NCBI RefSeq assembly: GCF_037094495.1
Contig: NZ_CP146612.1
Coordinates: 558,001 to 622,000, forward strand
Source: Dehalogenimonas sp. W
Lineage (GTDB): Bacteria > Chloroflexota > Dehalococcoidia > Dehalococcoidales > Dehalococcoidaceae
Direction of reading: 5' to 3'
DNA length: 64,000 bases
The notes under the pieces are model-generated. The model did no database searches, was not told where the DNA came from, and saw only the letters and a list, made by a program, of their open reading frames with translations. Shown here piece by piece: positions 2,669-33,883 of the stretch (position 1 is the stretch's first letter; each line of letters opens with the position of its first letter). The translations under genes and the position numbers were made by a program.

Positions 2669-3004
2669 GGCGAGCTGTCAGCCGTCAGCTGTCAGCCGTC
2701 AGCTTTCAGCTATCAGCTGAGAAAGAATATCTAATGTCTAAACAAATTCAAATATTCAATACTCTAAACATGGGAAACCTGGGCGGGTCGGGCATGCCCG
2801 ACCCCTACAAAGCTATTCGTAAAACCCGGCTTTTCCGTAGGGGCGAGGCATGCCTCGCCCGCATCGTAAAGAACGTGACATTCAAATACAACGGTCAAAC
2901 TAGTCACCACCATCCACGAATGGCCATCCACCAGTTGGGCATGCCTTGAACCCTGATTACCGAAGTGCTAGGCTTATCGCCAGGAAAATCGCAGGAGGCC
3001 ACAT
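2669..3004. repeat. Heptad array plus a REP pair between nurA and the small membrane gene
   Basis: Six consecutive AGCNNTC heptads follow the nurA stop (2670-2722), then AT-rich heptads. Two REP palindromes in opposite orientation follow, at 2785-2804 (arms GGGTCGGGCA/TGCCCGACCC) and 2841-2860 (GGGCGAGGCA/TGCCTCGCCC). The two starts are 56 bp apart, the same spacing as the pair at 3975/4031. The tail to about 2950 is a diverged copy of the spacer found downstream of the REP at 3878. Confidence 0.85.
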
Positions 3005-3211: not shown

Positions 3212-3309
3212 AGCTACCGATACTATCGGCTCACAGGCCGGTTAATGTGGCGGAGCGGGGTTTCTCACGGGGGCGAGGCATGCCTCGCCCGCATCGTAAA
3301 GCAGACGTC

Positions 3310-3861
3310 ATGAATAAACCAACCCGCATAAAGACTGAATCTTTCCCGGTTCGGAAAAATACCCGGCTAAAAGAGTATGATTATTCCACGGCCGCAGTGT
3401 ATTTTATTACCGTTTGCGTACAGGACAAAAAATGCCTGTTCGGTGAAGTCACAGATGGTACGATAACCGTGAGCGCTCTCGGCACGATGACCGAACAATG
3501 CTGGAAGGATATTATCAAACATTCCCCCGACATTGAAATTGACGAATGGGTGGTCATGCCGAACCATTTCCACGGTATTGTTCATATCCCGGACATAACG
3601 GGGCGGGCGAGGCATGCCTCGCCCCTACAACACCCTGCCCCTCGGCGTACTGTTGTCGGGACTGTCATCGGTTCATTTAAATCAGCGGTAACCCGACGTT
3701 TGAAGCAGGACGGATTGATATCCGCATCAGTTTGGCAACGCGGCTATTATGAGCACGTCGTCCGGAACGAAGAAGACCTTGCCCGTATACGGGAATACAT
3801 CGCGTGGAATCCAGCCCGGTGGACGGACGACCCAGAATACCACGAGGGTGACATTCAATGA
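3310..3861 (+). CDS. REP-associated tyrosine transposase (RAYT, IS200-like Y1 family)
   Basis: This 183-residue single-strand DNA transposase-like protein is of the Y1/HUH type. The HUH motif is NHFHGIV (H86, H88) and the catalytic tyrosine lies in RGYYEHVVRNEEDL (Y147 or Y148). RAYTs act on REP hairpins and are domesticated relatives of IS200/IS605 transposases. REP palindromes flank it on both sides, at 3271-3290 upstream and 3878-3897 downstream. A further REP (3605-3624) lies inside the gene in frame, encoding about residues 97-105 between the HUH motif and the catalytic tyrosine. I chose the ATG at 3310 because the frame upstream of it reads through a REP. No clear ribosome site is visible. 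Confidence 0.88.
   Translation: MNKPTRIKTESFPVRKNTRLKEYDYSTAAVYFITVCVQDKKCLFGEVTDGTITVSALGTMTEQCWKDIIKHSPDIEIDEWVVMPNHFHGIVHIPDITGRARHASPLQHPAPRRTVVGTVIGSFKSAVTRRLKQDGLISASVWQRGYYEHVVRNEEDLARIREYIAWNPARWTDDPEYHEGDIQ
3605..3624. repeat. REP palindrome inside the RAYT gene
   Basis: A perfect 20-bp palindrome with arms GGGCGAGGCA/TGCCTCGCCC, identical to the REPs on both sides of the gene. It is read in frame as part of the transposase, encoding residues about RARHASP. Confidence 0.95.
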
Positions 3862-4230
3862 AGACGTGTTTCCGTAGGGGCGAGGCATGCCTCGCCCGCA
3901 TCGTAAAGATCTTGACGTTCAGACCTAACGGCCAAATCAATCACCACCATCCCCGATTAGCCATTGACCGGGGCGGGTCGGGCATGCCCGACCCCTACAA
4001 AGCTATTCATAACGTCGGGTGTTTCCGTAGGGGCGAGGCATGCCTCGCCCGCATCGTAAAGATCTTGACGTTCAAACCTAACGGCCAAATTGACAATCAC
4101 CATCCCCGATTAGCCATTGACCGGGGCGGGTCGGGCATGCCCGACCCCTACAAAGCTATTCATAACGTCCCTGGACTTCAAACTTTTCTCCAGTCTGATA
4201 ACGCTACACTGATATGGGAGCTATAATCCA
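3862..4230. repeat. Tandem 153-bp REP-pair (BIME-like) array
   Basis: Four REP palindromes in alternating orientation lie at 3878-3897, 3975-3994, 4031-4050 and 4128-4147. The first and third, and the second and fourth, are each offset by exactly 153 bp, so a two-REP unit has been tandemly duplicated nearly identically. The arms alternate between GGGCGAGGCA and GGGTCGGGCA types. Flanks GTAGGGGC and CGCATCGTAAAG are constant. The open frame running through the array is repeat sequence, not a gene. Confidence 0.93.
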
Positions 4231-4833
4231 ATGAATCCAGAATCTAAAATCGCCGAAATTATTGAAACCGCCTCCACCGGCTTCACCGCCCAGTGCTATG
4301 ACCTGAACGCCGCGCCGGCGCTGGGGGCGCTGGTGAAAACCACCGTGGACGGCATCGTCGTCTACGCTGTGGTATCCCACGCCGCCACCACCTCCATGGA
4401 ACCCGGCCGCAAGCCGGTGGCCCGCGGCCGGGACGAGACTGACGAAGACGCCGTCTTCGCCGCCAACCCCCATCTGGAGAAACTGATGCGCTGTGAGATT
4501 GAGGCGGTCATTGCCGGCCATGCCGGCCCTGACGGCACCATCCGTCACCACCTGCCGCCCCGCCCCGCCCGGCTCCACGGCTTCATCCATGAATGCGCCG
4601 CCGCTGAGATCCGGGACTTCAGCGCCCGGGCCGGTTTCATCCCGCTGCTGCTGGCTGCCCAAGGACCGGTCCCGCCGGAGGAACTGACCGCCGCGGCGTT
4701 GCGGGCTATCGGCGCCGCCTATGAAGGCGAGGAGCGCCGGGCTTTCCTGGTCGCCGCCGGACAGACGCTGGCGCGGCTGCTGGCCGCTGATTATAATCGC
4801 TTGAAAACCATACTGGAGAGGCTGGGGTCATGA
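4231..4833 (+). CDS. HerA-associated protein, possible HAS-barrel helper
   Basis: This 200-residue protein is encoded directly upstream of herA, with a 4-nt ATGA overlap, so the two are translationally coupled. Residues about 10-50 resemble the small beta-barrel found at the N-terminus of HerA proteins. The C-terminal half is alpha-helical. I do not recognise a named family with certainty. The coupling suggests a structural or regulatory partner of the NurA-HerA machine. A GGGAG lies about 11 bases before the ATG. Confidence 0.7.
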   Translation: MNPESKIAEIIETASTGFTAQCYDLNAAPALGALVKTTVDGIVVYAVVSHAATTSMEPGRKPVARGRDETDEDAVFAANPHLEKLMRCEIEAVIAGHAGPDGTIRHHLPPRPARLHGFIHECAAAEIRDFSARAGFIPLLLAAQGPVPPEELTAAALRAIGAAYEGEERRAFLVAAGQTLARLLAADYNRLKTILERLGS

Positions 4834-6413
4834 GCATGGAACACCACCTGGGCATCGTTACCGCCGGTTCACTGAACAAGGGCATTGAGGTCAAGCTGGA
4901 CGGCGCGGCCTCCATTGAAGACATGGCCGTCGGCCGCTACGTCACCATTGAGGGAAACAAGCGCCGTTTCTTCGGCATGATTACCGACGTTTCCCTCGGC
5001 GTCACCGACCCGGCGCTGACCGTTTCCCCGCCGTCCGATGACGGCTTTCTGTCTGAAATCCTGACCGGAACTTCGGCCTACGGCTCGCTGCATGTCGCCC
5101 CTTATCTGACCATAGGAGGCACTGAAACGGCCATAGACGGCCCCCAGCCGGTCAAGACGATACCTGGGCACTTCTCGCCCGTCAAGGAGGCCTCAGCGGC
5201 CGACATCGAGTTGGTCTTCGGCAAGGAAGACGCCAAAAAATTCTGGATCGGCAACCCGCTGGACATGGAGGTCAAGCTCTGTCTGGACTTGCAGAATCTG
5301 GCCAAACGCTCCAACGGCATCTTCGGTAAAAGCGGCACCGGCAAGACCTTCCTGACCCGCATGCTGCTCATCGGCCTGCTGCAGAAATCCGCCGCGGTCA
5401 ATCTGGTCTTTGACATGCACTCGGAGTACGGCTGGGCCGGGACATTTGAAGGCAAGGGGCGCAAGGTCAAAGCCCTGAAACAGCTCTTCCCGTCCAAGGT
5501 GGCCGTCTTTACCCTGGATGAAGAAAACTCCCGCCAGCGCGGCGTATCCACCGATTTTGTCGTCAGGATCGGCCTGGAGGAAATCGAGCCGGAGGACATC
5601 TCCCTGCTGCGTCAGACCCTCAACCTGACCGATGCCGCGGTGGAAGCGGTGTATCAGTTGCGCCGGCATTACGGCAAGGGGTGGTTCACCGCCGCTGAGG
5701 ACATTGAGGATTCCGCCACCCTGGATGAGCTGAAAATTCATGAAAGCACCTTCCAGAACCTCAGGCGCGGCCTGAACACCATCCGGCGGCTGCCGTTTAT
5801 CGCCCCCAACGCCCCCGGCGATGTGGTGGACACCATGCTGAAATACCTGGAATCCGGCAAGCACGTGGTGCTGGAATTCGGCCGTTATACCGATATCACC
5901 GCCTACATGCTGGTCGCCAACCTGCTGACCCGGCGCATCTACGCTTCCTACCGCGACCGCACCGAGAAAGCGGTGGCTGCCGACAGCGGCTACCCCACGC
6001 CCCTGGTAATCACTATCGAGGAAGCCCACAAGTTCCTGAACTCCGGCGTGGCCTCCCAGACCATCTTCGGCACCATCGCCCGCGAGATGCGCAAGTATTC
6101 CGTCACCCTGCTGATCATAGATCAGCGGCCGTCGGGCATTGACGATGAGATCATGTCCCAGCTCGGTACCAAGATCACCTGCCTGCTGGACTCGGAAAAG
6201 GATATTGACGCGGTGCTGTCCGGCGTGTCAGGCAAGAACGAATTGAAAAACGTGCTGGCCAAGCTGTCTTCCCGCCAGCAGGCGCTCATCTTCGGCCACG
6301 CCGTGCCCATGCCGGTGGCCTTCACGCCGCGGGAATACGGCAGTGACTACGGCGACTGGGGCGACACCGCGGCGCAGGTGACGGATAAGGAGATTGAGGA
6401 GTTGTGGGAATAA
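4830..6413 (+). CDS. herA: HerA-type DNA translocase/ATPase
   Basis: The 527-residue product has a HAS-barrel domain (about residues 5-100) followed by a FtsK/HerA-type RecA-like ATPase. Walker A is GKSGTGKT (166-173), and the Walker B region is VITIEEAHKF near residue 395. HerA forms a hexameric pump that works with NurA to resect DNA ends; this is established for archaea and is also known in bacteria such as Deinococcus. The ATG overlaps the preceding stop and is preceded by GGAGAGG. The stop is followed within a few bases by heptad repeats. Confidence 0.88.
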   Translation: MSMEHHLGIVTAGSLNKGIEVKLDGAASIEDMAVGRYVTIEGNKRRFFGMITDVSLGVTDPALTVSPPSDDGFLSEILTGTSAYGSLHVAPYLTIGGTETAIDGPQPVKTIPGHFSPVKEASAADIELVFGKEDAKKFWIGNPLDMEVKLCLDLQNLAKRSNGIFGKSGTGKTFLTRMLLIGLLQKSAAVNLVFDMHSEYGWAGTFEGKGRKVKALKQLFPSKVAVFTLDEENSRQRGVSTDFVVRIGLEEIEPEDISLLRQTLNLTDAAVEAVYQLRRHYGKGWFTAAEDIEDSATLDELKIHESTFQNLRRGLNTIRRLPFIAPNAPGDVVDTMLKYLESGKHVVLEFGRYTDITAYMLVANLLTRRIYASYRDRTEKAVAADSGYPTPLVITIEEAHKFLNSGVASQTIFGTIAREMRKYSVTLLIIDQRPSGIDDEIMSQLGTKITCLLDSEKDIDAVLSGVSGKNELKNVLAKLSSRQQALIFGHAVPMPVAFTPREYGSDYGDWGDTAAQVTDKEIEELWE

Positions 6414-6930
6414 AAGCTGTCAGCTGTCAGCCATCAGCTTTTTAGTAGGCAGTAGACAGTAAACAGTCAGCAGTTTACAGTAATGAATACCGGGATTGCT
6501 TCGGCGCAGCCTCGCAAGGCGAGTTGTCAGCTGCCAGCCGTCAGCTTCCTGGATTACCCGCTTTCGCGGGTAATGACAAAAAGTGAGGGTAATGACAACA
6601 AAATAAATGTCATCCTCGGCGAAAGCCGAGTACCCACCGGGCGGGAGAGGCATGCCTCTCCCCTACGGAAAAGTCCACGTTTTGAAACTTTTGGTTTAGC
6701 TTTCAGCCATCAGCAGTCAGCTATCAGCTTTCAGCCCCCCTCCCCGTCACTGCGAGCGACCAGCCGGCGCGAAGGAGTCTCGGTACTTTTGTTGAAGTAT
6801 TGGAAATTGGTAGTATTTTCCCGTCTTTGCGCCGCCCCGGTACTAGTCCTTAAGGCCCAGACATCCTTGACAATAACGAAGCGTCATTGTAATATCAAAA
6901 CATTAACATCTTTTTAGGAGGGTTCCAGGT
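6414..6930. repeat. Composite repeat island before the binding-protein gene
   Basis: The order from left to right is: AGCNNTC heptads, CAGTNNN heptads (6446-6484), a GATTGCTTCGG module, a GGATTACCCG...CGGGTAATGAC hairpin, a GTCATCC...GAAAGCC module, a REP (6643-6662, arms GGGAGAGGCA), more heptads, a GTCACTGCGAGC module and a TTGGTAGTA segment. The promoter of the following gene probably lies at about 6840-6910, but I cannot assign it firmly. Confidence 0.8.
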
Positions 6931-10644: not shown

Positions 10645-10792
10645 CGCATGGCCCTCCTTTACGGAAATTCCAAATCCTAATTTCTAAATCCCAAACAAAT
10701 CCAAAATTCCAATATCCAATACCAAAACCTGACCGGTTTCGGGCTTTGTTCAGAAGAGTCTTCGGCGTCATTTCGAGGAGGGGTTCAACCAT
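10637..10792 (-). CDS. Putative 51-residue leader ORF created by duplication of the livG start
   Basis: A duplicated livG ribosome site and ATG at 10792 opens a frame of 51 codons. It begins MVEPLLE, a mutated version of the livG N-terminus MAESLLK, runs through AT-rich heptad repeat sequence, and stops with a TGA at 10637-10639, inside livG codons 2-3. It has a good ribosome site. Whether it is translated, and whether it couples translation to livG, is inference. Confidence 0.4.
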   Translation of the reverse strand: MVEPLLEMTPKTLLNKARNRSGFGIGYWNFGFVWDLEIRIWNFRKGGPCDG

Positions 10793-10930
10793 CGCATGGC
10801 CCTCCTTTACGGAAATTCCAAATCCTAATTTCTAAATCCCAAACAAATCCTAAATTCAAATATTCAATACCAAAACAGGTTGCTACCCGGTTCCGGCTAT
10901 TGTTTACGGGATTAATTGAAGCACACAGCG
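10645..10930. repeat. Repeats separating livM from livG
   Basis: Copies of a segment of about 33 bp (GAGGAGG...GGCCCTCCTT) start at 10627, 10775 and 10938. Between them lie two AT-rich heptad blocks (CCAAATC, CTAATTT and similar units). The repeated segment is the livG ribosome site and first codons and can fold as a hairpin (GGAGGG/CCCTCC with inner GCCAT/ATGGC). Confidence 0.9.
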
Positions 10931-12748: not shown

Positions 12749-14067
12749 ATCTTGTCCCTGGTCGGAAAATCCGCGTTAATATAACAGATGAGGCCGAAAT
12801 CGGCAACCATCGCGGTATTATACCGTAATAAGCTATCAGCCGTCAGCTATCAGCTATCAGCCTTTTAGTAGGCAGTACACAGTCGGCAGTTTACAGTAAT
12901 GAATACCGGGATTGCTTCGGCGTGGCCTTGCAGGGTGAGCTTTCAGCTATCAGCTTCCGGCTGGCAGTAATCAGTACACAGTCGGCAGTTTACAGTAAAA
13001 AAACCCGGGATTGCTTCGGCGCAGGCTCGCAGGGTGAGGGCTGGCTTAAGTACCAGTCGCAGTTTCAGCTATGAGCTTTCAGCTAGCTTTCGCTGCTCAG
13101 TAATCAGTACACAGTCGGCAGTTTACAGTAAAAAATACCGGGATTGCTTCGGCGTCGCAGGGAGCTTTCAGCTATCAGCTTTCGGCTGGCAGTAATCAGT
13201 ACACAGTCGGCAGTTTACAGTAAAAAATACCGGGATTGCTTCGGCGCAGCCTCGCAGGGTGAGCTTTCAGCTATCAGCTTTCGGCTGGCAGTAATCAGTA
13301 CACAGTCGGCAGTTTACAGTAATGAATACCGGGATTGCTTCGGCGTGGCCTTGCAGGGTGAGCTTTCAGCTTTCGGCTGGCAGTAATCAGTACACAGTCG
13401 GCAGTTTACAGTAAAAAATACCGGGATTGCTTCGGCGCAGCCTCGCAGGGTGAGCTTTCAGCTATCAGCTTTCGGCTGGCAGTAATCAGTACACAGTCGG
13501 CAGTTTACAGTAAAAAATACCGGGATTGCTTCGGCGCAGCCTCGCAGGGTGAGCTTTCAGCTTCGGCGCAGCCTCGCAGGGGAGCTTTCAGCTTTCAGCT
13601 ATCAGCTTTCGGCTGGCAGTAATCAGCTTTTACAGTAAAAAATACCGGGATTGCTTCGGCGCAGCCTCGCAGGGTGAGCTTTCAGCTATCAGCTTTCACT
13701 GGCAGTCACAGTCGGCAGTTTACAGTAAAAAATACCGGGATTGCTTCGGCGCAGCCTCGCAGGGTGAGCTTTCAGCAGTCAGGTTTCAGCTTTCAACCCC
13801 CTCCCCGTCACTGCGAGCGACCACAAGGCGCGAAGCAGTCTCGGTACTCCTATTCAAATATTTGAGATTGGTAGTATTTGTGGCATTGGTAGTATTTTCC
13901 GGCCATCAGCTACATGGATTACCCGCTTTCGCGGGTAATGACAACAAAATAAATGTCATCCCCGGCGAAAGCCGGGGATCCACGTCCTCAATAACTCGTT
14001 ACTGTTTACTGGATATTAGAATTTCCTGGGGGATCCACTCCTACGGATGCGGGCCGGCGTACTCCAC
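12749..14067. repeat. Tandem array of about 100-bp composite units and flanking hairpins
   Basis: From about 12832 to 13790, a unit of roughly 91-100 bp is repeated about eight times. It contains AGCNNTC heptads, a CAGTNNN block and a GGGATTGCTTCGGCG...CTCGCAGGGTGAG module. Many units have a length divisible by three, so open frames run across several units and encode repeated peptides; I regard these as non-coding. After the array come a GTCACTGCGAGC module, a TTGGTAGTA block and the paired hairpins GGATTACCCG.../GTCATCCCCGG... (13917-13985). Confidence 0.9.
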
Positions 14068-14334
14068 CTATACGCTGCGCGCCTCCTGGTTGATCCAATA
14101 CCGGATACGGTGGCTGTCAGTGACATCATATTGCAGCAGCCACTTCAACTCACCTTTGAGACGTTTGGCTTTCCCCGCTGAATTAATGGTATCAGCCGGC
14201 GATTTCTCCAGAAAAGCCTTGCAGCGCTTCATCGGCTCCGGATACTGGCTTTCAAGCTGTCGCCAGCCCTTAAGCACGGCGTTTTTCTCCAGATACACGG
14301 CATACTTGCCGGACGGCTCAGTCAAGACGAACAT
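14068..14334 (-). CDS. RelE/ParE-like toxin, probably truncated by a nonsense codon
   Basis: An 88-residue RelE/ParE-superfamily-like protein; the segment KRLKGELKWLLQYDVTDSHRIRYWINQEARSV fits the toxin fold. The stop is a TAG at 14068-14070. The same frame continues for eight more codons (VEYAGPHP) to a second TAG at 14041, and YxEYAGPHP-like ends are what related toxins normally carry. This suggests that a tyrosine codon became TAG and removed the last strand. It overlaps the upstream antitoxin gene by 17 nt. Confidence 0.65.
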   Translation of the reverse strand: MFVLTEPSGKYAVYLEKNAVLKGWRQLESQYPEPMKRCKAFLEKSPADTINSAGKAKRLKGELKWLLQYDVTDSHRIRYWINQEARSV

Positions 14335-15260: not shown

Positions 15261-15290
15261 GAGGGAGCCTCCATTTCTGGAGGCTCCCTC
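15261..15290 (-). terminator. Terminator of the 1050-residue surface-protein gene
   Basis: A hairpin with 13-bp arms GAGGGAGCCTCCA/TGGAGGCTCCCTC and a TTTC loop. Heptad repeats (15297-15325) lie between it and the stop codon. The same hairpin with an exactly inverted loop (GAAA) follows the paralogue at 20421-20450. Confidence 0.88.
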
Positions 15291-15335
15291 TGAAGCTGAC
15301 AGCTGTTAGCTGAAAGCTGATAGCTTAAAGTTTAA

Positions 15336-18300
15336 CTACACTACCGCCCGCGTCCGGACAATCAGCACAGTCACCAGAATGGTCAGAATACCGCCGATGC
15401 CGATGATCAGCCAGATATAGGTCGGCACTTCGGCGTCCGGCGCTCCCAACTGGGTCAGGGTAATGCCCGGCTGTGCCGTCTGGGTCACCGTCACCTGCGG
15501 CTGAGCCGCCGCAGCGGTAGTGAACACGCCGCTCACCCAGGCGGACTGCCCGGTAGCCGTCTGTGCCGCCACGCGCCAGTAGTACACCGCGCCGTTATTC
15601 AGCGGGCTGCCCGGCCAGGCGAAGGCGGCGATGGGTGAGGAGAAACGCTGCGGGTTGGTGAATCCGGAATCGGTGCCCACCTCAACCACATACCCCGTAG
15701 CCCCCGGTATGGGCGACCACTGGAACGAAGGATTGGTCGGCACGTCCTGGGCCGCCGGCGGCGGCGCCAGGTTCGGGTCGGTCTGTCCCGGCGCGTTCGG
15801 TTGAGTGGCAAACGAGGTGGTGCCCACGAACGAGGTCACCGGAGCCACCGCCCAGACGCTCACCGAATACACCGTATTGGAATCCAGGTTGTTAAAAGTA
15901 TAGGTCAGGGTATCCAGGTCGTCCGCGGCCAGCACAGCCGTGTACACGTCACTGGCGGCCTCTGAACCGGCCACAATGGCCACACCGTAAGTGTCGGCGG
16001 TCGGCAGACCAGTCCAGGTAACGGTGGCTGAACCGGTATTGAAAGCGCCGATGCTGACACCCGGCACAGGCACCGCCAGGTGGTCGGTATAGGTATAAAG
16101 CTCATTGCCGTCGCCGATGGTCCACAGCTTGTTGGCTCCGGCCTGAGGCTGGATATAGAGCTTATTGGCCCCGGTAAAATCGTCGGAGGGCGAAATCTTA
16201 CCGGCACGGGAAGCATCGGCCATAATCCGGCTGAGTTCAGCATCGGCATCCATGGCATAGATGACATAGTCGCCGCCGACAGCGATACCGGAGGCAATGC
16301 CGACGCCCTGGTCGACCGTGTTGGGTACGGAATTAGGTGAATCAAACAGCGGCGCGTCGCCGCCGTCATCAAAGCGGTCGCCCCATGAAGGCGTAGCGGC
16401 GGTCAGATTCATGGCAAAAACGCCGCTGTTATAGCTGGTAGCCCAGATCTTGGAATTGGAGCCGTATTCAAAGGTAATGGATACCGGAGCCGCAGCGCCC
16501 GGCAGAGCCGCTTCGGGCGACGCTGACCAGGTCACACCCAGGTCGGTGGAACGGGTCACCCGGCCGTTGTCATCAATGGCCGCCAGGGTGGAGCCGTCGG
16601 TGGAGCGGATAATGGCGGCGATATAGCCGGTCATCTCCGTGATGTTGGTGACATCCCAGAAGAAACCGCCGTTGGTGGTGCGGGCGAACCGGCCGTCGGT
16701 AGTGCCCACCACAAAGGTATTCAGGTTAATGACCTCATAGGAACAGACGGGACTGCCGGCAAACGGCGGCACCACCTGCGCCTCAAAGGTCTGGCCCCGG
16801 TCGGTGGAGCCGACGATAACGCCGCCGGTTGTGCCGTTGTCAGTGCCGTCGATGAAGAAGACACCGCCGTCGGAGGCGTAATTGGGCGAAAGTTCCAGCT
16901 TGGTCAGGTAATTGGGTTCCTGGTTGCCCAGCACCCGCTCCCAGTTGCCGCCGGAATAGCGCCACAATGACCGGTTGTCATAATTTTGGATTTCGCCCAT
17001 GCGGTGTGACTGATCCGGCGCTACTGAAGACGTAATCATGAAGATGTCGCCGTTGGCGGCGAAAGCCACGTCGTCAATGGTATAAATGGTTGAATTCAAA
17101 AGGCTCAGGCCGTTCCAGTTGACGCCCTTGTCCACTGAAAGGTGGAAGCCGGCTTCATCATAAGGGGAGCCTTCCATTCTCGGCGTGGTCAAAGCATAGG
17201 CAACGCCGGAAGAAGCGAAGTCGCCGCGGAAGAGCACCTCGGCCGGCCCGTCGCCGGTGAGCTTCTTGCCCTGGGTCCAGACCTGCCCGTAGTTAAGAGT
17301 AGTATAAACTTCACCGTAAGCGGTGCCGGCAATCAAAGAAGCCGAAGTAAAACTACCGGTTACATCCAGACTGCCCACCGGCATCGGTTCGCTGATCAGC
17401 ACGGCCGCGCCGTTCATTACCCGGTAAACGCCGCCGTCGCCGCCATAAGCGCCCACGCCGACATAGTAACTGGGGTTGGATATGGAAAAACCGGTCGGCA
17501 GGGCCAGTTGGCCGAAGATATCGTAAGCGATATATGAGCGTTCATTACTTTCAGCCAGCGTGATCTCCACGCCGGGCGTTGCTCCCCATGAGCCGCCGCC
17601 GACGTTATAGGAGATGAGGGCTGCGGTATAGGAATCGCCTAATTTATATGAATTGTAGATATTATCGTCAGTGGACAGCACCACCACACCCCTGTCGGTG
17701 GCGAAGCTGGGCGAAAGTTCGATGTCGATAATCCGCGCCCCCGGATTGGCGGTGGCAAAATCAGGCGTGCCCACCGGCACCAGGGTATTGAAGAATTCGG
17801 CTTCGTCCATTATGTAAACGTTGCCGCCGGAAAGCTCATAAGGAGTCGCACTCATTTTCTTTGAGGTGGCACCGCCGTAGGAAGTACCCACTATCACCTT
17901 ATAGGCACCGCCCACTTTGGCCACGGCCATGGCGGTGATAAATTCGTAACTGTTCAGGGACGCCATAGTGGTGAAGTTCTTGCCGCCGTCAGTGGATTTC
18001 ATGATGGTGGGGGTATAACCGGCGGTCATGGGTGTAGCCGTCGTTGTGCCCTGACCGGCGAAGGGTGTTGTGGATGGCGGCGGAGTGGAACTGGGCGGCG
18101 GTGTATTCTCCACATTAACTGCGATATAAATCACGTTAGCCTCGGTCGGCGAAGCGGCAATGGCGGTAATCTCGCCGGGCACTTCAGTGGCCGTCCAGGT
18201 GCGGCCGCCGTTGGTGGACTTGACCAGATTATAGCCCCAGTCAAGTAAGACCACATTGTTGGTCTCTTCCCCAAACCGGACATAGGCGTACAGCGCGCCG

Positions 18301-18488
18301 TCAGCGCCCATGGTCAGTAGGCCGGAGTCATATATGTTGTTGGGCATGACCAGGCCTTCCTCGGAAGGAGTGGCAAACTGCGTCCACTCATGAGTGCCGG
18401 CGCTGACCGGCATGACTGAGGTAATCAGCAGACTGGCCATAATCGCTGCGGTCAGCAGCACGTTGAAGATCCGGTGGAGTTTTTTCAT
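15336..18488 (-). CDS. Large secreted, membrane-anchored protein with BNR/Asp-box repeats and Fn3-like domains
   Basis: This 1050-residue protein has a signal peptide (residues 1-31, ending PVSAG) and a long beta-propeller-like region with Asp-box motifs such as STNGGRTW, STDGGKNF, STDRGQTF and STDLGVTW. Two fibronectin-III-like domains follow (about 815-1000), then a C-terminal membrane helix (YIWLIIGIGG...) with a short basic tail. It would be anchored in the membrane facing outwards, as an S-layer-like or adhesion component; the exact role is unknown. The leader contains a small CCGAAT/ATTCGG hairpin (18522-18536). A 1182-residue paralogue lies at 20488-24036. Confidence 0.85.
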   Translation of the reverse strand: MKKLHRIFNVLLTAAIMASLLITSVMPVSAGTHEWTQFATPSEEGLVMPNNIYDSGLLTMGADGALYAYVRFGEETNNVVLLDWGYNLVKSTNGGRTWTATEVPGEITAIAASPTEANVIYIAVNVENTPPPSSTPPPSTTPFAGQGTTTATPMTAGYTPTIMKSTDGGKNFTTMASLNSYEFITAMAVAKVGGAYKVIVGTSYGGATSKKMSATPYELSGGNVYIMDEAEFFNTLVPVGTPDFATANPGARIIDIELSPSFATDRGVVVLSTDDNIYNSYKLGDSYTAALISYNVGGGSWGATPGVEITLAESNERSYIAYDIFGQLALPTGFSISNPSYYVGVGAYGGDGGVYRVMNGAAVLISEPMPVGSLDVTGSFTSASLIAGTAYGEVYTTLNYGQVWTQGKKLTGDGPAEVLFRGDFASSGVAYALTTPRMEGSPYDEAGFHLSVDKGVNWNGLSLLNSTIYTIDDVAFAANGDIFMITSSVAPDQSHRMGEIQNYDNRSLWRYSGGNWERVLGNQEPNYLTKLELSPNYASDGGVFFIDGTDNGTTGGVIVGSTDRGQTFEAQVVPPFAGSPVCSYEVINLNTFVVGTTDGRFARTTNGGFFWDVTNITEMTGYIAAIIRSTDGSTLAAIDDNGRVTRSTDLGVTWSASPEAALPGAAAPVSITFEYGSNSKIWATSYNSGVFAMNLTAATPSWGDRFDDGGDAPLFDSPNSVPNTVDQGVGIASGIAVGGDYVIYAMDADAELSRIMADASRAGKISPSDDFTGANKLYIQPQAGANKLWTIGDGNELYTYTDHLAVPVPGVSIGAFNTGSATVTWTGLPTADTYGVAIVAGSEAASDVYTAVLAADDLDTLTYTFNNLDSNTVYSVSVWAVAPVTSFVGTTSFATQPNAPGQTDPNLAPPPAAQDVPTNPSFQWSPIPGATGYVVEVGTDSGFTNPQRFSSPIAAFAWPGSPLNNGAVYYWRVAAQTATGQSAWVSGVFTTAAAAQPQVTVTQTAQPGITLTQLGAPDAEVPTYIWLIIGIGGILTILVTVLIVRTRAVV

Positions 18489-24036: not shown

Positions 24037-24962
24037 CGACCTTTAAATTTCCTTTTCGAATTATTTATTTTGGATTATTAATATGTCTTTTTGGTTATTC
24101 CCTAAAGACTCCTGGAGATCTATTTTGTTTTTCTTTCTGCCGACCCGTTTTCCTGATAAGTGGTTAGTCTATATAAAGGAAGAGGGGTCTTAACGGCTGC
24201 TTTCGTATTCCATCACCACCTTTCTGTATGTTTTATGAAATGCAGACAACGCGACACCGCGCAGCCTGCTTTTTCTGCGTTATTAATATAATACCACGGG
24301 TGTCAAGGGGGTAGGGGGGGAAAGCTTTCAGCTATCAGCAGTCAGCCATCAGCTTTTAGTACGCAGTTTTCAGTAAACGGTTCACAGTATTAGGTAGACC
24401 AGGGGGTTTTAAGGTATCCGTAAGCCTTATTGAAATATTTGAAATTGGTAGTACCCGAAGCTATCAGCTATCAGCTTTCAGCAGTCAGCTGTTTTGTAGG
24501 CAGTAGACAGTAGGCAGTATACAGGTATCAGCCACCTACATATGTCATTGCGAAGCCGCCGCCAGGCGGCTGTGGCAATCTAATGAGTAACTGGTTTACC
24601 ATGATTTAGATTACCACGTCGCTTCGCTCCTCGTAATGACGGATGGGATACACGGTTTTGTCATTGCGAAGCCGCGTCAGCGGCTGTGGCAATCTAATGA
24701 GTAACTGGATTACCATGATTTAGATTACCACGTCGCTTCGCTCCTCGTAATGACGGAGGGGTTAAGGGTTTTGTCTTTGCGAAGCCGTCTGGCGGCGGCT
24801 GTGGCAATCTCGGTTCCTGTTTAGGTCATTATAATTTTGGTATTTGATATTGTTTAGGTATTAGATATTGGATATTAGAATTTCCCGAAGGGCTTTGTCA
24901 TCCTCGGCGAAAGCCGGGGATCCACCGGGCGGGAGAGCCCGGCCGTCTTCCTTATATATATA
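24037..24962. repeat. Promoter region of the surface-protein gene, then repeat island
   Basis: 24037-24300 is unique, AT-rich sequence that should hold the promoter and leader of the 1182-residue protein gene. From 24320 on there are AGC and CAGT heptads, a TTGGTAGTA segment, paired hairpins in divergent order (GTCATTGCG...GGCAATCT, spacer, AGATTACCACG...CGTAATGACGG) at least twice, AT-rich heptads (24830-24890) and a GTCATCCTCGG module. No gene is seen. Confidence 0.8.
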
Positions 24963-25223
24963 TCAGGGGTTCTTCAAACATTCATCATGGTTATCAACAT
25001 TGCGGAGGAACAGTACCTCGCCGGACCGCTCAAAGGTCATGCGGTATTTATCATCCACATAAGCCTCAAAAATGCCCGGCGCGCCCTGAACCGGGTGACT
25101 GCGGAGGCCGGGGTGCCGGTGATCCGCGTCCAGCAGCTTCAGGGCTTTATCAACCTTGCGCTGGATTATCTTTGACAGCTCCGCGTAACGGCTGACAAAA
25201 CGCTCCGACAGACGGATGGTCAT
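24963..25223 (-). CDS. RelE/ParE-family toxin
   Basis: An 86-residue RelE-superfamily protein, with the segment HPGLRSHPVQGAPGIFEAYVDDKYRMTFERSGEVLFLRNVDNHDECLKNP typical of mRNA-interferase-like toxins. Its start overlaps the antitoxin stop by one base (TGATG), so translation is coupled. It appears full length. Confidence 0.78.
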   Translation of the reverse strand: MTIRLSERFVSRYAELSKIIQRKVDKALKLLDADHRHPGLRSHPVQGAPGIFEAYVDDKYRMTFERSGEVLFLRNVDNHDECLKNP

Positions 25224-25519
25224 CAGGCGCGGCGGCCACCGGTGCGTTTATGGAGATAGGCCACGGCCTGGCCGGCATCGGCAAATTCATGAACCCGACC
25301 GGCAGTTACATCAGCCTCAACCCCGGCCTCACCCTGCTGCCAGCGGCGGCTCCAGAACCAGGCCTGATCCTTATCTACCAGCTTCTTGAGCTTGAGGATG
25401 ATTTCCCCGTCCTGCACCCGGACGTCAACCACGTCGCCGTCCTCAATATTCAGTTGCCGCCGAATAGACAACGGCAGGGTCAGCTGGGCTTTTTTCCGTA
25501 TCTGAATCAGTTCCGACAT
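25223..25519 (-). CDS. AbrB/MazE-type antitoxin
   Basis: A 98-residue protein with an N-terminal swapped-hairpin AbrB domain (residues 3-48: LIQIRKKAQLTLPLSIRRQL...GDVVDVRVQDGEIILK) and a C-terminal toxin-binding tail. First gene of the pair. AbrB-type antitoxins normally repress their own promoter. The start at 25519 has GGAAA upstream, which is weak. Confidence 0.8.
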   Translation of the reverse strand: MSELIQIRKKAQLTLPLSIRRQLNIEDGDVVDVRVQDGEIILKLKKLVDKDQAWFWSRRWQQGEAGVEADVTAGRVHEFADAGQAVAYLHKRTGGRRA

Positions 25520-26372
25520 ATTTTCCTACTTTCTGATTTTCAGAATATCAGATGATCAGCTAAAAAGCAACATGAACGGGCGAGCTGTCAGCTGTCAGCT
25601 TTCAGCTTGTAGTAATCAGTTGGCAGTCAGCAGTTTACAGTAAAAATACCGAGATTGCTTCGGCGTAGCCTCGCAATGACGCTTAGAATATAACAATGCC
25701 CCTCCCCGTCACTGCGAGCGACCACCAGGCGCGAAGCAGTCCCGGTACTCTTATTCACATATTTGAAATTGGTAGTATTTTGATAAGGCTATCAGCTATC
25801 AGCAGTCAGCTTGTAGTAATCAGTTGGCAGTCAGCAGTTTACAGTAACGAATACCGAGATTGCTTCGGCGTAGCCTCGCAATGACGTTGGGGGTGTGGGC
25901 GGCCGTGGCAATCTAATGAGCAACTGGAATACCATGATTTAGATTACCACGTCGCTTCGCTCCTCGTAATGACGGAGGGGTTAAGGGTTTTGTCTTTGCG
26001 AAGCCGCCTGGCGGCGGCTGTGGCAATCTCGGTTCCTGTTTAGGTCATTATAATTTTGGTATTTGATATTGTTTGGGGATTAGATATTGGATATTAGGAT
26101 TTCCCGTAGGGGCGCAGGCAATTTTTACACTATTACCAAAAGCGCTTTGCGTTAACAGGCCTGTATCGCAACGGTTGTCATATAATCACGGCAGAATTTC
26201 AGGCAAAAAAGATCGCCGGAAGCACAATATCGTTTGTTTCCGCCCCTATCCCATGTTTGCTATCCATGAGATTGTTGTTGTATCATGATGGTACAAGTAG
26301 TTATCCCCCCTGCGATTTAGGTTGCAGGGTCGCAAGAGCCGCCGCAAGGTGGCTTTTGTATATGGAGAAAAA
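25520..26372. repeat. Repeat island and upstream region of the NYN gene
   Basis: 25560-26105 is composite repeat: heptads, GATTGCTTCGG and GTCACTGCGAGC modules, an AGATTACCACG module, AT-rich heptads and a broken REP at 26106-26118 (GTAGGGGCGCAGGC only). 26120-26372 is unique sequence with a TATAAT-like element near 26181 and probably holds the promoter of the NYN-domain gene. Confidence 0.75.
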
Positions 26373-27098
26373 TTGAAAACCAACGTCTATATTGACGGTT
26401 TTAACCTTTATTACGGCGCATTAAAGTATTCCCCATTCAAGTGGCTGAACCTGGCCATGTTATGCTCAAATCTGTTTCCCAACGATACCATCAATCAAAT
26501 CCGCTATTTTACCGCCAGAGTCAAACCATCGCCCCATGATCTGGAGGCACCGCTGCGGCAGGATATTTACCTGCGCGCTTTGCGTACTCTGCCGTCGCTT
26601 TCAATATATCAAGGAAGATACGTCCAGCATCCTACCTTGTCCGCCCAGTATCCCCTTGTTTATATCAACCATCCTAAAAGGCATGCAGCAGTTAAGCCGG
26701 TGCTGATAGACAAGCCGGAATATGCGTATATTGCAAATGGAGAAGCCAAACCTGAAGGCTCGCCGGTTTGTGCGTACGTCCTCAAACGGGAGGAAAAAGG
26801 TTCTGACGTTAATCTGGCCTCAATGTTGCTGGCTGACTGTTACGAAGATGCCTTTGATAAGGCGGTAGTCATCAGTAATGATTCAGATTTATGCATGCCG
26901 ATAGAGTTATCTATCAGGCGTTGCGGCAAACACATCACTGTTGTTAATCCCCACGATAAATCTTACCAGTCAGTGCATCTTAAGAAGATAGCCACTGCAT
27001 ATATGCAGAACATCAACCGCAGCGTTCTCGCCGCTTCCCAATTCCCACACACCCTCAGCGACTCAGTAGGCACCATAACCAAACCCGCAGGCTGGTGA
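26373..27098 (+). CDS. NYN-domain (LabA/DUF88-like) putative RNase
   Basis: A 241-residue PIN-like NYN protein. The core acidic residues sit in NVYIDGFNLYYG near the N-terminus, SDVNLASMLLADCYED in the middle and VVISNDSDLCMPIELS at about residue 170. Together they form the metal site of this nuclease fold. I chose the TTG at 26373 because GGAG lies five bases upstream and the conserved fold begins right there. Bacterial NYN proteins are often linked to RNA processing or defence; the role here is unknown. Isolated between repeat islands. Confidence 0.8.
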   Translation: MKTNVYIDGFNLYYGALKYSPFKWLNLAMLCSNLFPNDTINQIRYFTARVKPSPHDLEAPLRQDIYLRALRTLPSLSIYQGRYVQHPTLSAQYPLVYINHPKRHAAVKPVLIDKPEYAYIANGEAKPEGSPVCAYVLKREEKGSDVNLASMLLADCYEDAFDKAVVISNDSDLCMPIELSIRRCGKHITVVNPHDKSYQSVHLKKIATAYMQNINRSVLAASQFPHTLSDSVGTITKPAGW

Positions 27099-27419
27099 AG
27101 CCGCCGCCAGGCGGCTGTGGCAATCTCAACGGGCGAGCGTTCAGCTATCAGGTTTCAGCCTGTAGGGGCTGGACATGTCCAGTCCGCCCGGTCAGTCCTT
27201 CCCCTATCGTCACTGCGAGCGACCACCAGGCGCGTAGCAGTCCCGGTACTATTATTGAAGTATTTGAAATTGGTAGTATCCGAAGCTTTCAGCAGTCAGC
27301 TACCTGGATTACCCGCTTTCGCGGGTAATGACAAAATAAATGTCATCCTCGGCGAAAGCCGGGGATCCACGTCCTCAATGACTCGTTACTGATGACTGTT
27401 TACTGAATACTTGGCCCGT
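27099..27419. repeat. Repeat island between the NYN gene and the hicA remnant
   Basis: It contains a GTCACTGCGAGC module, an imperfect REP (27166-27185, arms GGGCTGGACA/TGTCCAGTCC), heptads, the paired hairpins GGATTACCCG.../GTCATCCTCGG... (27305-27372) and a TTACTGN heptad block. No gene is seen. Confidence 0.8.
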
Positions 27420-27539
27420 CTATTGAAATATTGGAAATTGGTAGTATTTGTAGTATTGGTAGTATTGATCCGGGGCAATTGGCCCGGTGTTCAGGCGCTT
27501 TACCAGGTCCTTCCAGGTGACCGGGGAGAGTTTAGACAC
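27420..27539 (-). pseudogene. HicA toxin truncated and fused to repeat sequence
   Basis: Starting at a GTG that overlaps the hicB end, the frame gives a typical HicA N-terminus, (M)SKLSPVTWKDLVKRLN. After about 20 residues it runs into the TTGGTAGTA 9-nt repeat (minus strand), which encodes QYYQYYKYYQF, and stops at 27420. The dsRNA-binding core and catalytic histidine of HicA are missing, so the toxin is dead. Confidence 0.75.
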
Positions 27540-27786
27540 CGGCCTTAAGGCGGCGGGGGATTTTCAGACGGGTTTTACCCAGTGCGGGGATGTCCATACC
27601 CTGACTGAGCCGGAATACTACCCAGGCGTCAACGGCATCGGCCAGATTACGGCGACACGCTTCCAGATTGGCGCCGGTAGCCCAAACGCCGGGGAGCTCC
27701 GGAATCTCACCATAATACGGCTCTGCGTCTTCAATGATTTCATATTTGGCCCGCTGTAAAGCGGCTTCAATGTATTCTCTAATCAT
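27532..27786 (-). CDS. HicB-type antitoxin, orphaned
   Basis: An 84-residue HicB-like protein (MIREYIEAALQRAKYEII...GEIPELPGVWATGANLEACRRNLADAVDAWVVFRLSQG) with the typical partial RNase-H-like fold. The ATG at 27786 has no ribosome site. Instead a promoter-like TTGCCC-17-TATAAT ends nine bases before it, so the message may be nearly leaderless. Its toxin gene is broken (27420-27539). Confidence 0.78.
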   Translation of the reverse strand: MIREYIEAALQRAKYEIIEDAEPYYGEIPELPGVWATGANLEACRRNLADAVDAWVVFRLSQGMDIPALGKTRLKIPRRLKAGV

Positions 27787-28157
27787 GACGATTTTATTAT
27801 AGGCTTTCACCAACACAGGGGCAAGGGAGGTGGCCGTGAAAAGCGACCAGCAGTCAGCAGTCAGCTTGTAGTAATCAGTTGGCGGTCAGCAGTTTACGGT
27901 TAATAATACCGGGATTGCTTCGGCGTAGCCTCGCGAGGCGAGCTGTCAGCAGTCAGGTTTCAGCCTGTAGGGGCTGGACATGTCCAGCCCGCCCCGGTCC
28001 GCACTCCCTATCGTCACTGCGAGCGACCACCAGGCGCGAAGCAGTCCCGGTACTAGTATTCAAATATTGGAAATTGGTAGTATTTCAATGCTGTCAGCTT
28101 TCAGCGTCTTTGATTATGGCAGGCTAAAGTCTGCTCGTTAAGGGGAGGGGCAACACT
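27787..28157. repeat. hicB promoter and repeat island before the RhuM fragment
   Basis: The hicB promoter candidate occupies 27796-27824. Heptads, a GATTGCTTCGG module, a REP (27971-27990, arms GGGCTGGACA/TGTCCAGCCC), a GTCACTGCGAGC module and a TTGGTAGTA segment follow. Confidence 0.75.
27796..27824 (-). promoter_or_regulatory. Promoter candidate of the orphan hicB gene
   Basis: -35 TTGCCC and -10 TATAAT, separated by 17 bases on the minus strand. The -10 ends nine bases before the ATG at 27786, and there is no ribosome site between them. The TATAATAAAATC stretch is the same as that upstream of tsaD. Confidence 0.55.
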
Positions 28158-28493
28158 TTGAACACATCTGATGCTACGGGGCGCGGGGATATAATTTTCT
28201 TTCAGGATCCCAGCGGCAATATCTCGGTCAACGTGCGTTTGGAAAGAGAAACGGTTTGGCTAAGCCTGAACCAGATGGCCGAACTGTTTGAGCGAGACAA
28301 TTCAGTTATATCCCGACATCTCCGAAATGTATTCAGGGATGGGGAATTGGAGCGGAAGGCAACTGTTGCAAAATATGCAACTGTTCAAACAGAAGGGACA
28401 CGAACGGTAATCCGTGAGGTTGAATACTTCAATCTGGATGCCATACTGTCGGTTGGCTGGAGCTGCGTGAAGCCCTTGAATACTGGGTCATGA
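28158..28493 (+). pseudogene. RhuM-family protein, N-terminal fragment
   Basis: About 100 residues match the N-terminal part of the RhuM (virulence RhuM) family: WLSLNQMAELFERDNSVISRHLRN, VAKYATVQTEGTRTV and YFNLDAILSVG. The family then normally continues for over 200 residues. Here the match stops at about 28455 and the frame reads into a hicB remnant out of frame, ending in WSCVKPLNTGS. The start is a TTG with a G-rich ribosome site. RhuM proteins often accompany TA or restriction loci. Confidence 0.72.
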
Positions 28494-28567
28494 TAAGCAT
28501 TGCCCGTCACCTGCCGCTGCCGATTGTGGATAACATAGAGCTCAAGATACCGGCAGAAATCTCCTGA
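28457..28567 (+). pseudogene. HicB antitoxin, C-terminal remnant
   Basis: An open stretch LELREALEYWVMISIARHLP... ending in IELKIPAEIS has the look of a HicB C-terminus (family pattern LREVLEEW...GLPIP...). It has no N-terminal half and begins directly at the end of the RhuM fragment. Its TGA overlaps the ATG of the hicA remnant that follows, which is the usual hicBA coupling. Confidence 0.6.
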
Positions 28568-28629
28568 TGCCGCCTTTCGGTCCGATAAAACGCCCTGACC
28601 TGGTGGCGGCGTTGCGCCGGGCAGGTTAG
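28567..28629 (+). pseudogene. HicA toxin, N-terminal remnant
   Basis: Twenty residues (MPPFGPIKRPDLVAALRRAG) match the start of HicA proteins. The frame then hits TAG exactly where the convergent hicA gene on the minus strand ends (28626). This indicates that arrival of the second hicBA pair cut this gene. Confidence 0.65.
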
Positions 28630-28850
28630 CCCTTCATCAAAGCAAGAAACTCGGCTACACTGACGCCGATACTCCGCAGAATAGCACGCAAAGTACCCCG
28701 GTCCAGTTCATCATGAAGAGGGACAGTTACCGGCTTGCGGCCTGGACAGCGCAACCTGACATGGCTACCCTTGACACGGGCTACGACACAACCGAGACCG
28801 GCAAGTATTTCAATACAACGGGCACCGGAAATAACGGGTAAGGGCGGCAA
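28626..28850 (-). CDS. hicA: HicA-family toxin (mRNA interferase)
   Basis: A 74-residue HicA/YcfA-like protein with the catalytic histidine in KGSHVRLRCPGRKPVTVPLHDELDRGTLRAILRSIGVS. It starts at a TTG (28850) directly after the hicB stop, giving MPPLPVISGARCIEIL, the standard N-terminus. It appears intact. Confidence 0.83.
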   Translation of the reverse strand: MPPLPVISGARCIEILAGLGCVVARVKGSHVRLRCPGRKPVTVPLHDELDRGTLRAILRSIGVSVAEFLALMKG

Positions 28851-29063
28851 TCAGGCACCAACCTCAACTTGATTGAGGCTATAATGCCTGGGGAGTGTCC
28901 AGCCTTCTTCATCCATACTTTCCAGGCACAGTTCAGCGGCTTCCCTGATGTTAACCAGGGCTTCGGCCTTGGTTTTACCCTGAGAGATACAACCGGGCAA
29001 CACGGGCACCTCAGCTGTATAATAGCCGTCTTCGCCTTGTGATATCAGCACCGGTAGTTTCAT
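28851..29063 (-). CDS. hicB: HicB-family antitoxin
   Basis: A 70-residue HicB protein (MKLPVLISQGEDGYYTAEVPVLPGCISQGKTKAEALVNIREAAELCLES). I chose the ATG at 29063 because GGAG lies seven bases upstream; the frame is open five codons further. It precedes its toxin with no gap and is predicted to neutralise it and repress the operon. Confidence 0.85.
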   Translation of the reverse strand: MKLPVLISQGEDGYYTAEVPVLPGCISQGKTKAEALVNIREAAELCLESMDEEGWTLPRHYSLNQVEVGA

Positions 29064-29801
29064 AGTTTTCTCCAACATGGATTGTTGATTTCAGTATAGA
29101 GCCACGGATGGAAAAATCCAAGTTACGAGCGAAGCTGGCAGCGGGCGAGCTGTCAGCGGCCAGCTTTCAGCTATCAGCTTGTAGTAATCGGTTGGCAGTA
29201 AACAGTAACGAATACCGAAATTGCTTCGGCGCAGCCTCGCAAGGTGAGCTGTCAGCAGTCAGCCGTCAGCTTTCAGCTTCCTGGATTACCCGCTTTCACG
29301 GGTAATGACAACAAAATAAATGTCATCCTCGGCGAAAGCCGGGGATCCACGTCTTCAATAACTCGTTACTGATGACTGTTTACTGAATACTTAGCCCGTC
29401 TATTGAAATATTGGAAATTGGTAGTATCCGAAGCTTTCAGCAGTCAGCTTTCAGCTTCCTGGATTACCCGCTTTCGCGGGTAATGACAACAAAATAAATG
29501 TCATCCCCGGCGAAAGCCGGGGATCCACGTCCTCAATAACTCGCTACTGATGACTGTTTACTGAATACTTGGCCCGTCTATTGAAATATTGGAAATTGGT
29601 AGTATTGGTATTATTTGCCCGTCTTTGCGAAGCCGCCAGCGGCTGTGGCAATCTCAACGGGCGAGCTGTCAGCATTCAGCTATCAGGTTTCAGCCTGTAG
29701 GGGCTGGACATGTCCAGCCCGCCCCGGTATATCTATTGAAATATTGGAAATTGGTAGTATTTGTAGTATTTGTAGTATTGGTAGTATTGGTAGTATTTCT
29801 C
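29064..29801. repeat. Composite repeat island before the MNT-HEPN genes
   Basis: The paired hairpins GGATTACCCG.../GTCATCC...GGATCC occur twice (29282-29349 and 29459-29528). There are also heptads, a REP at 29701-29720 (GGGCTGGACA arms) and a run of five 9-nt TTGGTAGTA/TTTGTAGTA units (about 29751-29798). No gene is seen. Confidence 0.82.
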
Positions 29802-29845
29802 TTGCGTCTCCCCTTAATACAGTATATAATACTTTATTTAAAGTA
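29802..29845 (+). promoter_or_regulatory. Promoter and operator candidate of the MNT-HEPN pair
   Basis: -35 TTGCGT (29802-29807), a 17-bp spacer and -10 TATAAT (29825-29830). An inverted repeat TACTTTA-TT-TAAAGTA (29830-29845) follows directly and covers the expected transcription start, so a repressor bound there would block initiation. The winged-helix domain of the first gene is the obvious candidate. Confidence 0.6.
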
Positions 29846-29859
29846 ATATTTACTACATT

Positions 29860-30516
29860 ATGAATCTGCTTGAAATCATATCCGGCTCCAAACTCAGGGC
29901 TAAACTGCTCGGCTGGCTGTTCAGTCACCCCGATGAACGTTTCTATGCCCGCCAGCTGACCGCATTGTTACAAGAGGATTCCACCAACCTCAGCCGGGAG
30001 CTGGCGCGCCTGGAAAAGGCCGGTCTGCTGAACCGGGTCATTGAGGGGCGTCAAAAGTACTACCAGGCCAACCGGCAAAGCCCGATTTTTGACGAACTCC
30101 ACCGGCTGGTCATTAAAACTTCCGGCATCGCCGACACGTTGCGGGCGGCGCTGATGTCCGTGGCCGAACAAATACGCGTCGCTTTCATCTACGGCTCTTT
30201 TGCCGCCGGCACGGAAAACCGCCACAGCGACATTGACCTGATGGTAATCGGCGACATCTCGCCGGAAGAGTTGACCGTCCCGCTGGATATTGCCGAGGCG
30301 CGGCTGGCCCGGGAGATAAACCCGGCGCTCTATACCCCGGCGGAATTCCGGGATAAACTGGACGAAGGACATCATTTCCTGAAAACAGTAACCGGAGCTG
30401 AAAAAATGTTCCTGATCGGAGACGAAGATGAGTTTGGCAGACTGGCTGGCCGAGGGCAAACTAAAAACACATACGACAAGCCGTCAGGAAATAGCCCACT
30501 TGATGACCGTATTTGA
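29860..30516 (+). CDS. Winged-helix/minimal nucleotidyltransferase (MNT) antitoxin-like protein
   Basis: This 218-residue protein fuses an N-terminal winged helix (about residues 10-70) to an MNT domain with GSFAAG (112-117) and DIDLMV (D124, D126). In HEPN-MNT systems the MNT enzyme neutralises the HEPN RNase, in known cases by AMPylating it. The fused DNA-binding domain suggests autoregulation at the inverted repeat just upstream. Its last 30 codons overlap the next gene by 89 nt and look unlike the rest of the domain. Confidence 0.82.
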   Translation: MNLLEIISGSKLRAKLLGWLFSHPDERFYARQLTALLQEDSTNLSRELARLEKAGLLNRVIEGRQKYYQANRQSPIFDELHRLVIKTSGIADTLRAALMSVAEQIRVAFIYGSFAAGTENRHSDIDLMVIGDISPEELTVPLDIAEARLAREINPALYTPAEFRDKLDEGHHFLKTVTGAEKMFLIGDEDEFGRLAGRGQTKNTYDKPSGNSPLDDRI

Positions 30517-30865
30517 CCGGGATCTGAAAGACGCCCGGGCGGACAACATCAGCCTGGACAGAAGATTCACCACCGCTTATAACGCCGCCCTGATGACCGC
30601 CAAGGCAGCACTGGCGGCTAAAGGCTACCGCACCGCAGGAGAAGCTAACCACTTTGTCACCATCAAATCCCTGGAATTCACCCTCACACCGGATCCGGTA
30701 AAAATCGCTGTCCTCAACCGTTACCGGCGACAGCGCAACCTGCTGGACTATGAAATGGCCGGCATCATTTCAGACCGGGAGGTGGCGGAAATAATCACAC
30801 TGGCTGAATATCTCCGCGCATCGCTGACGATGTGGCTGAAGGATAATTATCCGGAGCTGAGCTGA
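30428..30865 (+). CDS. HEPN-domain protein, putative RNase toxin
   Basis: A 145-residue all-helical HEPN-like protein that pairs with the overlapping MNT gene. The region RYRRQRNLLDYEM near residue 100 stands where HEPN RNases carry RX4-6H; here Asn/Asp replace the usual histidine, so catalytic activity is uncertain. The ATG at 30428 has GGAG seven bases upstream. Confidence 0.75.
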   Translation: MSLADWLAEGKLKTHTTSRQEIAHLMTVFDRDLKDARADNISLDRRFTTAYNAALMTAKAALAAKGYRTAGEANHFVTIKSLEFTLTPDPVKIAVLNRYRRQRNLLDYEMAGIISDREVAEIITLAEYLRASLTMWLKDNYPELS

Positions 30866-32409: not shown

Positions 32410-32442
32410 AAGAGGGGAACAGGCGCTGCCTGTTCCCCTCTT
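32410..32442 (-). terminator. Terminator of rho
   Basis: A perfect 15-bp stem AAGAGGGGAACAGGC/GCCTGTTCCCCTCTT with a GCT loop. Heptad repeats (about 32459-32491) lie between it and the rho stop codon. An intrinsic terminator after the gene for Rho itself is sensible. Confidence 0.9.
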
Positions 32443-33835: not shown

Positions 33836-33883
33836 TGTGGTTCTCCTGGGGGTTTAAAGTTTACAGTTTACAGTTAGCAGTTT

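Follow-up and report, generated by a model that had tools for sequence, protein, structure and literature searches.

The window analysed here is a stretch of 64,000 nt (positions 558001–622000 of a complete 1.77-Mb chromosome) in which short arrays of degenerate 7-nt units adjoin nurA, herA, rho and other genes (Table 1). The named relatives of one of its proteins belong to the Dehalococcoidia. The array at 2673–2719 reads AGC followed by six steps of NNTCAGC, in which the two variable letters (NN) are TG, CG, TG, CG, TT and TA in turn; TRF also reports it with a period of 14, and it looks like a quartet of units whose first two have been duplicated. We refer to arrays of this type as CAGC arrays, to those with CAGTNNN units as CAGT arrays and to both together as CAG arrays. 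Repeats of other kinds surround them. The intergenic islands at 1–840, 12749–14317 and 24037–32494 are mosaics of repeat families (GATTGCTTCGGC...CTCGCAATGACG, GGATTACCCGCTTTCGCGGGTAATGACA and GTCATCCTCGGCGAAAGCCGGGGATCC), and a degenerate tandem module of period 9, ATTGGTAGT or ATTTGTAGT, recurs through the islands at 29750–29797, 31116–31146 and 131–160. A Y1_Tnp gene (3307–3861), which encodes a tyrosine transposase of the REP-associated type, lies amid palindromes GTAGGGGCGAGGCATGCCTCGCCC in the region 3247–4169, with tandem copies at 3866–4169. These palindromes are REP elements with a GTAG tag, such as those of PMC3733652, and another palindrome built in the same way, GTAGGGGCTGGACATGTCCAGCCC, is found repeatedly near 27–32 kb.

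Table 1 Repeat arrays and related features of the window, with strand and gene context. G001 is the genome of a sister species.
Feature	Position	Strand	Context
CAGC array	2673–2719 (flagged as 2670–2722)	+	right after the nurA stop codon (nurA 1352–2668)
CAGC array	6415–6439	+	directly after the herA stop codon (herA 4830–6413); aligned with a G001 array in the same place
CAGT array	6446–6484	+	adjoins the CAGC array 6415–6439
CAGC array	6698–6735	+	shares a gene gap with 6415–6439 and 6446–6484
AT-rich, weakly 7-periodic stretch	10671–10727	+	nearly repeated at 10819–10877, with point changes between the two
Nine tandem copies of a composite (CAGC array + CAGT array + ACCGGGATTGCTTCGGCG block)	12831–13798	+
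CAGC array	15290–15330	-	closely follows the stop codon of a minus-strand gene (15336–18488); aligned with G001
9-nt module ATTGGTAGT, a counter-example in the same islands	29750–29797	+
CAGC array	32460–32491	-	just after the rho stop codon (rho 32495–33835, -); aligned with G001
CAGT array	33852–33890	+	fills the short gap ahead of rho, in which G001 carries a CAGC array, equally oriented
CAGT array	34272–34313	-	fills a short gap, in which G001 carries a CAGC array, equally oriented
CAGC array	41055–41095	+

Seven-nucleotide periodicity of the CAG arrays

Autocorrelation of the intergenic DNA of the window reached 0.313 at lag 7 (z 16.6) with further peaks at lags 14 and 21, which is the pattern of seven and its multiples that the earlier note had proposed to look for; the coding sequence of the window has a 3-nt rhythm only and no peak at lag 7 or 14. 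The same note had taken the arrays at 2670–2722 and 6446–6484 and the AT-rich stretch at 10671–10727 for three distinct modules that share one strict 7-nt step. The shared step is borne out for the first two, with lag-7 identities of 0.76 (z 8.3; lag 14, z 8.1) and 0.69 (z 5.8), but not for the AT-rich stretch, whose periodicity is weak (z 3.3 at lag 7 and 0.5 at lag 14) and whose register drifts. Nor are the first two distinct, as the AGCNNTC and CAGTNNN arrays represent a single heptamer type with a CAG core (CAGCNNT and CAGTNNN), and they often adjoin each other with CAGC first. The 9-nt module ATTGGTAGT of the same islands gives z 6.9 at lag 9 and −0.9 at lag 7 in the copy listed in Table 1. 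Because the AT-rich module is only weakly 7-periodic and another module has a 9-nt period, seven is not universal here: the 7-nt step is a hallmark of the CAG arrays and not of all low-complexity modules.

We counted runs in which CAG recurs four or more times at 7-nt steps in ~400 kb of the genome, a sample that consists mostly of stretches picked around array hits together with four control stretches elsewhere. There are 94 such runs for CAG and 0–2 for each of eleven unrelated control triplets; CTG, TCA and AGC were set apart from the controls because they merely re-count the same CAG arrays. Sorted by period, the arrays reported by TRF number 40 of 7 nt, 19 of 9 nt, 11 of 12 nt and 3 of 10–11 nt, with none of periods 2–6 or 8.

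A preferred size of four units

Arrays of the form AGC(NNTCAGC)k number 49, 30, 18, 28, 2 and 1 for k = 1 to 6 in the source genome, 63, 11, 19, 20 and 2 for k = 1 to 5 in the sister genome G001, and 14, 11, 19, 54 and 4 for k = 1 to 5 in five phage contigs. The step from k = 4 to k = 5 is a cliff in each case (28 to 2, 20 to 2 and 54 to 4), and AGC(NNTCAGC)4 is the preferred size in the tailed phages as well as in the two bacterial species. The bases that flank the quartets are hardly conserved. CAGT runs likewise peak at four units (11, 20 and 4 for k = 3 to 5, tandem duplicates included), and a wider range of sizes is found in the genomes G011 and G188.

A conserved core with drifting variable letters

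Only three arrays can be aligned between the source genome and G001, namely those after herA, after rho and at 15290. In these, 9 of 26 NN letters differ (35%) as against 4 of 54 letters of the fixed 5-nt core TCAGC (7%), a conservation of the core that is inflated, since arrays with a decayed core would escape recognition; at 32460–32491, the array after rho, the NN have changed and the core has been kept. Four-fold degenerate sites of herA differ between the two genomes at 70 of 249 positions. The core is slower than these sites (p = 0.0008) and the NN are not distinguishable from them (p = 0.5), so that the NN change at about the neutral rate. The orthologous NN are at the same time more alike than random (p = 0.004 for the 9 of 26 that differ). 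The same division holds in related phage contigs (L601/L602, L602/L604 and L602/L613, summed over both directions, so that each site is counted about twice), where 56 of 129 NN letters (43%) and 13 of 449 core letters (3%) differ, the figure for other aligned sequence being mostly 14–28%. One pair of phage contigs is nearly identical, and in it 0 of 312 NN letters have changed (both directions counted), which argues against rapid diversification. Hypermutation of the NN, at which another phage pair had hinted, was rejected on this absence of change together with the neutral pace of the NN.

The choice of variable letters follows the genome-wide word bias. The word GATC is depleted to 0.51 of expectation in stretches of the source genome and to 0.35 in those of G001, and the arrays of both lack NN = GA, the choice of letters that creates GATC; phages without GATC depletion often use it. 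The depletion looks like the mark, past or present, of a GATC-specific restriction system on the source genome and G001.

Placement, orientation and turnover

In the source genome and G001, CAGC arrays situated up to 40 nt downstream of a stop codon are in the sense orientation in 16 of 20 cases (p = 0.012). Relative to start codons, CAGT arrays are mostly found at distances other than just upstream and show no enrichment up to 40 nt away. Place and orientation are conserved as well: of the G001 gaps that match gaps with an array in the source genome, 9 of 40 hold an array, compared with 14 of 314 background gaps (p = 0.0003), and orientation is the same in all nine. At two narrow gaps near rho the species differ in array type, with CAGT in one and CAGC in the other. 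G001 carries no array at the exact spot that matches 2673–2719, and the remaining matching gaps are occupied there by other members of the same repeat collection. Because matching gaps hold other members of the collection, array turnover between the species is fast, unlike that of an essential signal, and this counts against reading the arrays as elements under selection.

Two simple accounts of orientation and spacing were considered and rejected. The first is replication polarity: dnaA lies at 873 kb, dnaA and GC skew together put the origin there, and array orientation runs in blocks of both signs on both replichores. The second, a cassette that would place stop codons in all frames (7 = 1 mod 3, with CTGA in every unit), fails for the source genome, since on the sense strand the CAGC core brings no stop codon.

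CAGC quartets in other bacteria and in tailed phages

The CAGC pattern was detected in 19 of 151 sampled genomes of the phylum (14 of 102 genera), and a further member of the genus, G005, gave no match to it. The pattern is also present in IMG/VR, where several contigs among the matches listed encode terminase, portal or major capsid proteins. Among those matches the viral quartets often form inverted pairs between genes, frequently right after a stop codon, and the order is CAGC-first in 54 of 54 pairs; L353, L300, L308, L299 and L318 are tailed-phage contigs with such CAGC-quartet pairs between structural genes. The NN of the two halves are complementary in 5 cases in phage pairs, rarer than the 12.5 expected by chance, and in 13 cases over the viral loci listed, where chance predicts 17.5 and the difference is not significant. 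Four phage pairs that were folded are strongly structured (z −5.4 to −7.1). Hairpins were rejected for the source genome, where a search within 60 nt found no inverted pairs and folding is weak (z −1.3 to −3.0); G001 likewise has no inverted pairs.

Related phages carry hairpins of other heptamers in the same gap, as seen for L318 versus L682 after the capsid gene and for L539 versus L542. The heptamer types TCAGCNN, GTCATTR and GCTAGTC occupy the same gap in this way at L318:2549–2640, L682:6083–6180, L539:5360–5463 and the homologous gap of L542. The reversed CAGC pattern yields 90 stretches in viral contigs, mostly single matches, and the reversed CAGT control does not discriminate, because other heptamer words are common there too.

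Possible origin and function of the arrays

We give roughly even weight to the reading that the CAG arrays constitute a degenerate element of defined form, with AGC(NNTCAGC)4 as its commonest version, that is kept by selection on its core. The simplest rival is that they are neutral simple-sequence repeats, heptamer arrays made by slippage (seven being the commonest long unit in bacteria) that have then decayed without function, and we regard this as unlikely though well short of negligible. Slippage does occur, as the earlier note had suggested: the tandem copy at 13346–13437 has one 7-nt unit fewer, inside the array, than the copy at 13438–13536, and related phages have different numbers of whole units in their perfect (CAGCCGT)n arrays, with a difference of four in L314/L439, for example. 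A neutral origin is also in line with a polymerase footprint of 7 nt that has been proposed in the literature and with a CAGT array whose 19 units fall mainly into just two types. This array, at G000 (source genome) 1,759,431–1,759,563 (L102:15431–15563), is almost purely CAGTTCA and CAGTTTA and is the sole array in the source genome that looks freshly expanded by slippage. What slippage does not do is explain the arrays as a whole. Identical neighbouring units, which slippage-made repeats should have, are found only in a few perfect arrays; the CAGC arrays have 13 of them against 13.5 expected by chance, or 19 against 20.5 in a larger count, and most other lineages are near or below expectation. 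The NN of neighbouring units agree at 0.23 and 0.30 at their two positions, which is the chance level, and, where both flanking cores are present, 57 of 69 units have an exact middle core. Slippage is thus inadequate as the sole account, because neighbouring units are no more alike than chance and because open-ended slippage would not give a peak at four and a cliff at five; a core that changes several times more slowly than the NN is a further difficulty for a neutral history. On the gain or loss of whole units, for which the earlier note had proposed to compare strains, related phages show whole-unit changes and the three aligned G001 arrays mainly NN point changes.

It is also conceivable, and in our judgement rather improbable, that the arrays are in-register junctions between repeat modules, formed by ectopic recombination, with gene conversion keeping the core. 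The mosaic make-up of the islands fits this, as does the finding that repeat alignments end in CAGC arrays 2.4 times more often than at interior points (11.2% vs 4.6%), but CAGT arrays have no such enrichment (8.7% vs 9.6%), and neither the size of four nor the sense bias is explained. Homogenisation would moreover randomise the NN, and the resemblance of orthologous NN argues against it as the dominant process, so that selection would seem the better account of the constant core. The earlier note had also suggested that units are added in a templated or telomerase-like manner, with a reverse transcriptase or primase-polymerase as the enzyme to look for, or copied by an unknown polymerase. A short template with loose positions would fit the fixed frame, the variable positions and the preferred number of units, but such a mechanism now appears very improbable. 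The search for a matching enzyme returned no RVT_1 (reverse transcriptase) domain in the genome, with control genomes giving matches, and no Prim-Pol domain; the NN follow the genome-wide word bias and stay unchanged between near-identical phage contigs, and the G001 arrays keep their orientation, the three alignable ones diverging mainly by point changes in the NN.

If the arrays are a selected element, ordinary repeat slippage would probably supply the heptamer units, and purifying selection on the TCAGC core at 7-nt steps would maintain both the fixed frame and the preferred quartet size. The putative reader of the element would most likely be a protein or a pairing partner that touches RNA or single-stranded DNA once per unit. 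Seven nucleotides correspond to about two thirds of a turn of DNA, which makes a reader of RNA or single-stranded DNA likelier than a reader of the double helix. More tentatively, the quartet may be a functional signal common to several Chloroflexota families and tailed phages, read every 7 nt as RNA or single-stranded DNA. The phage version would consist of CAGC-first hairpins, with helices of 5 bp separated by 2 × 2 mismatches. Since related phages carry hairpins of other heptamers in the same gaps, the form, degenerate heptamers in inverted arrangement after stop codons, may matter more than the word.

Studies have for years found heptamers to be the most frequent long simple repeat in many bacterial genomes, without assigning a function to them. 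The size of four, the resistant core, the near-neutral NN and the recurrence of this design in unrelated phages turn the question "why seven?" into a testable one, namely which molecule reads TCAGC every 7 nt, and they caution against taking heptamer arrays for mere products of slippage.

Comparison with known heptamer repeats

A literature search for the array words themselves gave no relevant match; the nearest known relatives of the CAG arrays are other heptamer repeats. In the accounts of Mrazek et al. 2007 given in PMC4679880 and PMC4692102, heptanucleotides are the most abundant class of long simple sequence repeats in most prokaryotic genomes; as described in those accounts the repeats are simple and open-ended, whereas the CAG arrays have a defined size and a division into core and variable letters. 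The TAACTGA direct repeats of Beggiatoaceae, Cyanobacteria and Bacteroidetes are likewise intergenic and vary by indels in 7-nt steps between close strains (PMC4679880). On the other strand, TAACTGA reads CAGTTAT and so falls within CAGTNNN. Its unit is nearly invariant, with close variants rare, and in the main genome examined for it most copies stand directly ahead of start codons (PMC4679880); the CAGTNNN units, in contrast, vary widely, CAGTTAT being just one of them, and are not concentrated upstream of start codons.

In Geobacter metallireducens, four or five tandem heptamers make up dispersed elements, of which one class consists of five units of MTYCTGA, and the class 3 sites are shown as pairs on opposite strands (PMC2700814). 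The CAG arrays resemble these elements in having a fixed number of heptamers in dispersed copies, here with a maximum at four units and a sharp drop at five, and MTYCTGA has the CAG core on the other strand; the consensus is a different one, and we set the two side by side by description, not by sequence. A further likeness is to the GGGAATC or GGGANTN heptamers of Xanthomonas, which are intergenic, have positions 1–4 and 6 conserved and the others variable, mostly comprise four units (range 2 to 26) and prefer downstream sites on the coding strand (PMC4692102). The CAG arrays share with them the tandem intergenic 7-nt units with conserved and variable positions, the common size of four and the downstream, coding-strand preference. 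The Xanthomonas core, however, is G-rich and quadruplex-forming with the consensus GGGANTN, and the consensus here is CAGCNNT or CAGTNNN. We therefore file the CAG arrays and the Xanthomonas repeats as the same kind of element, not as the same family.
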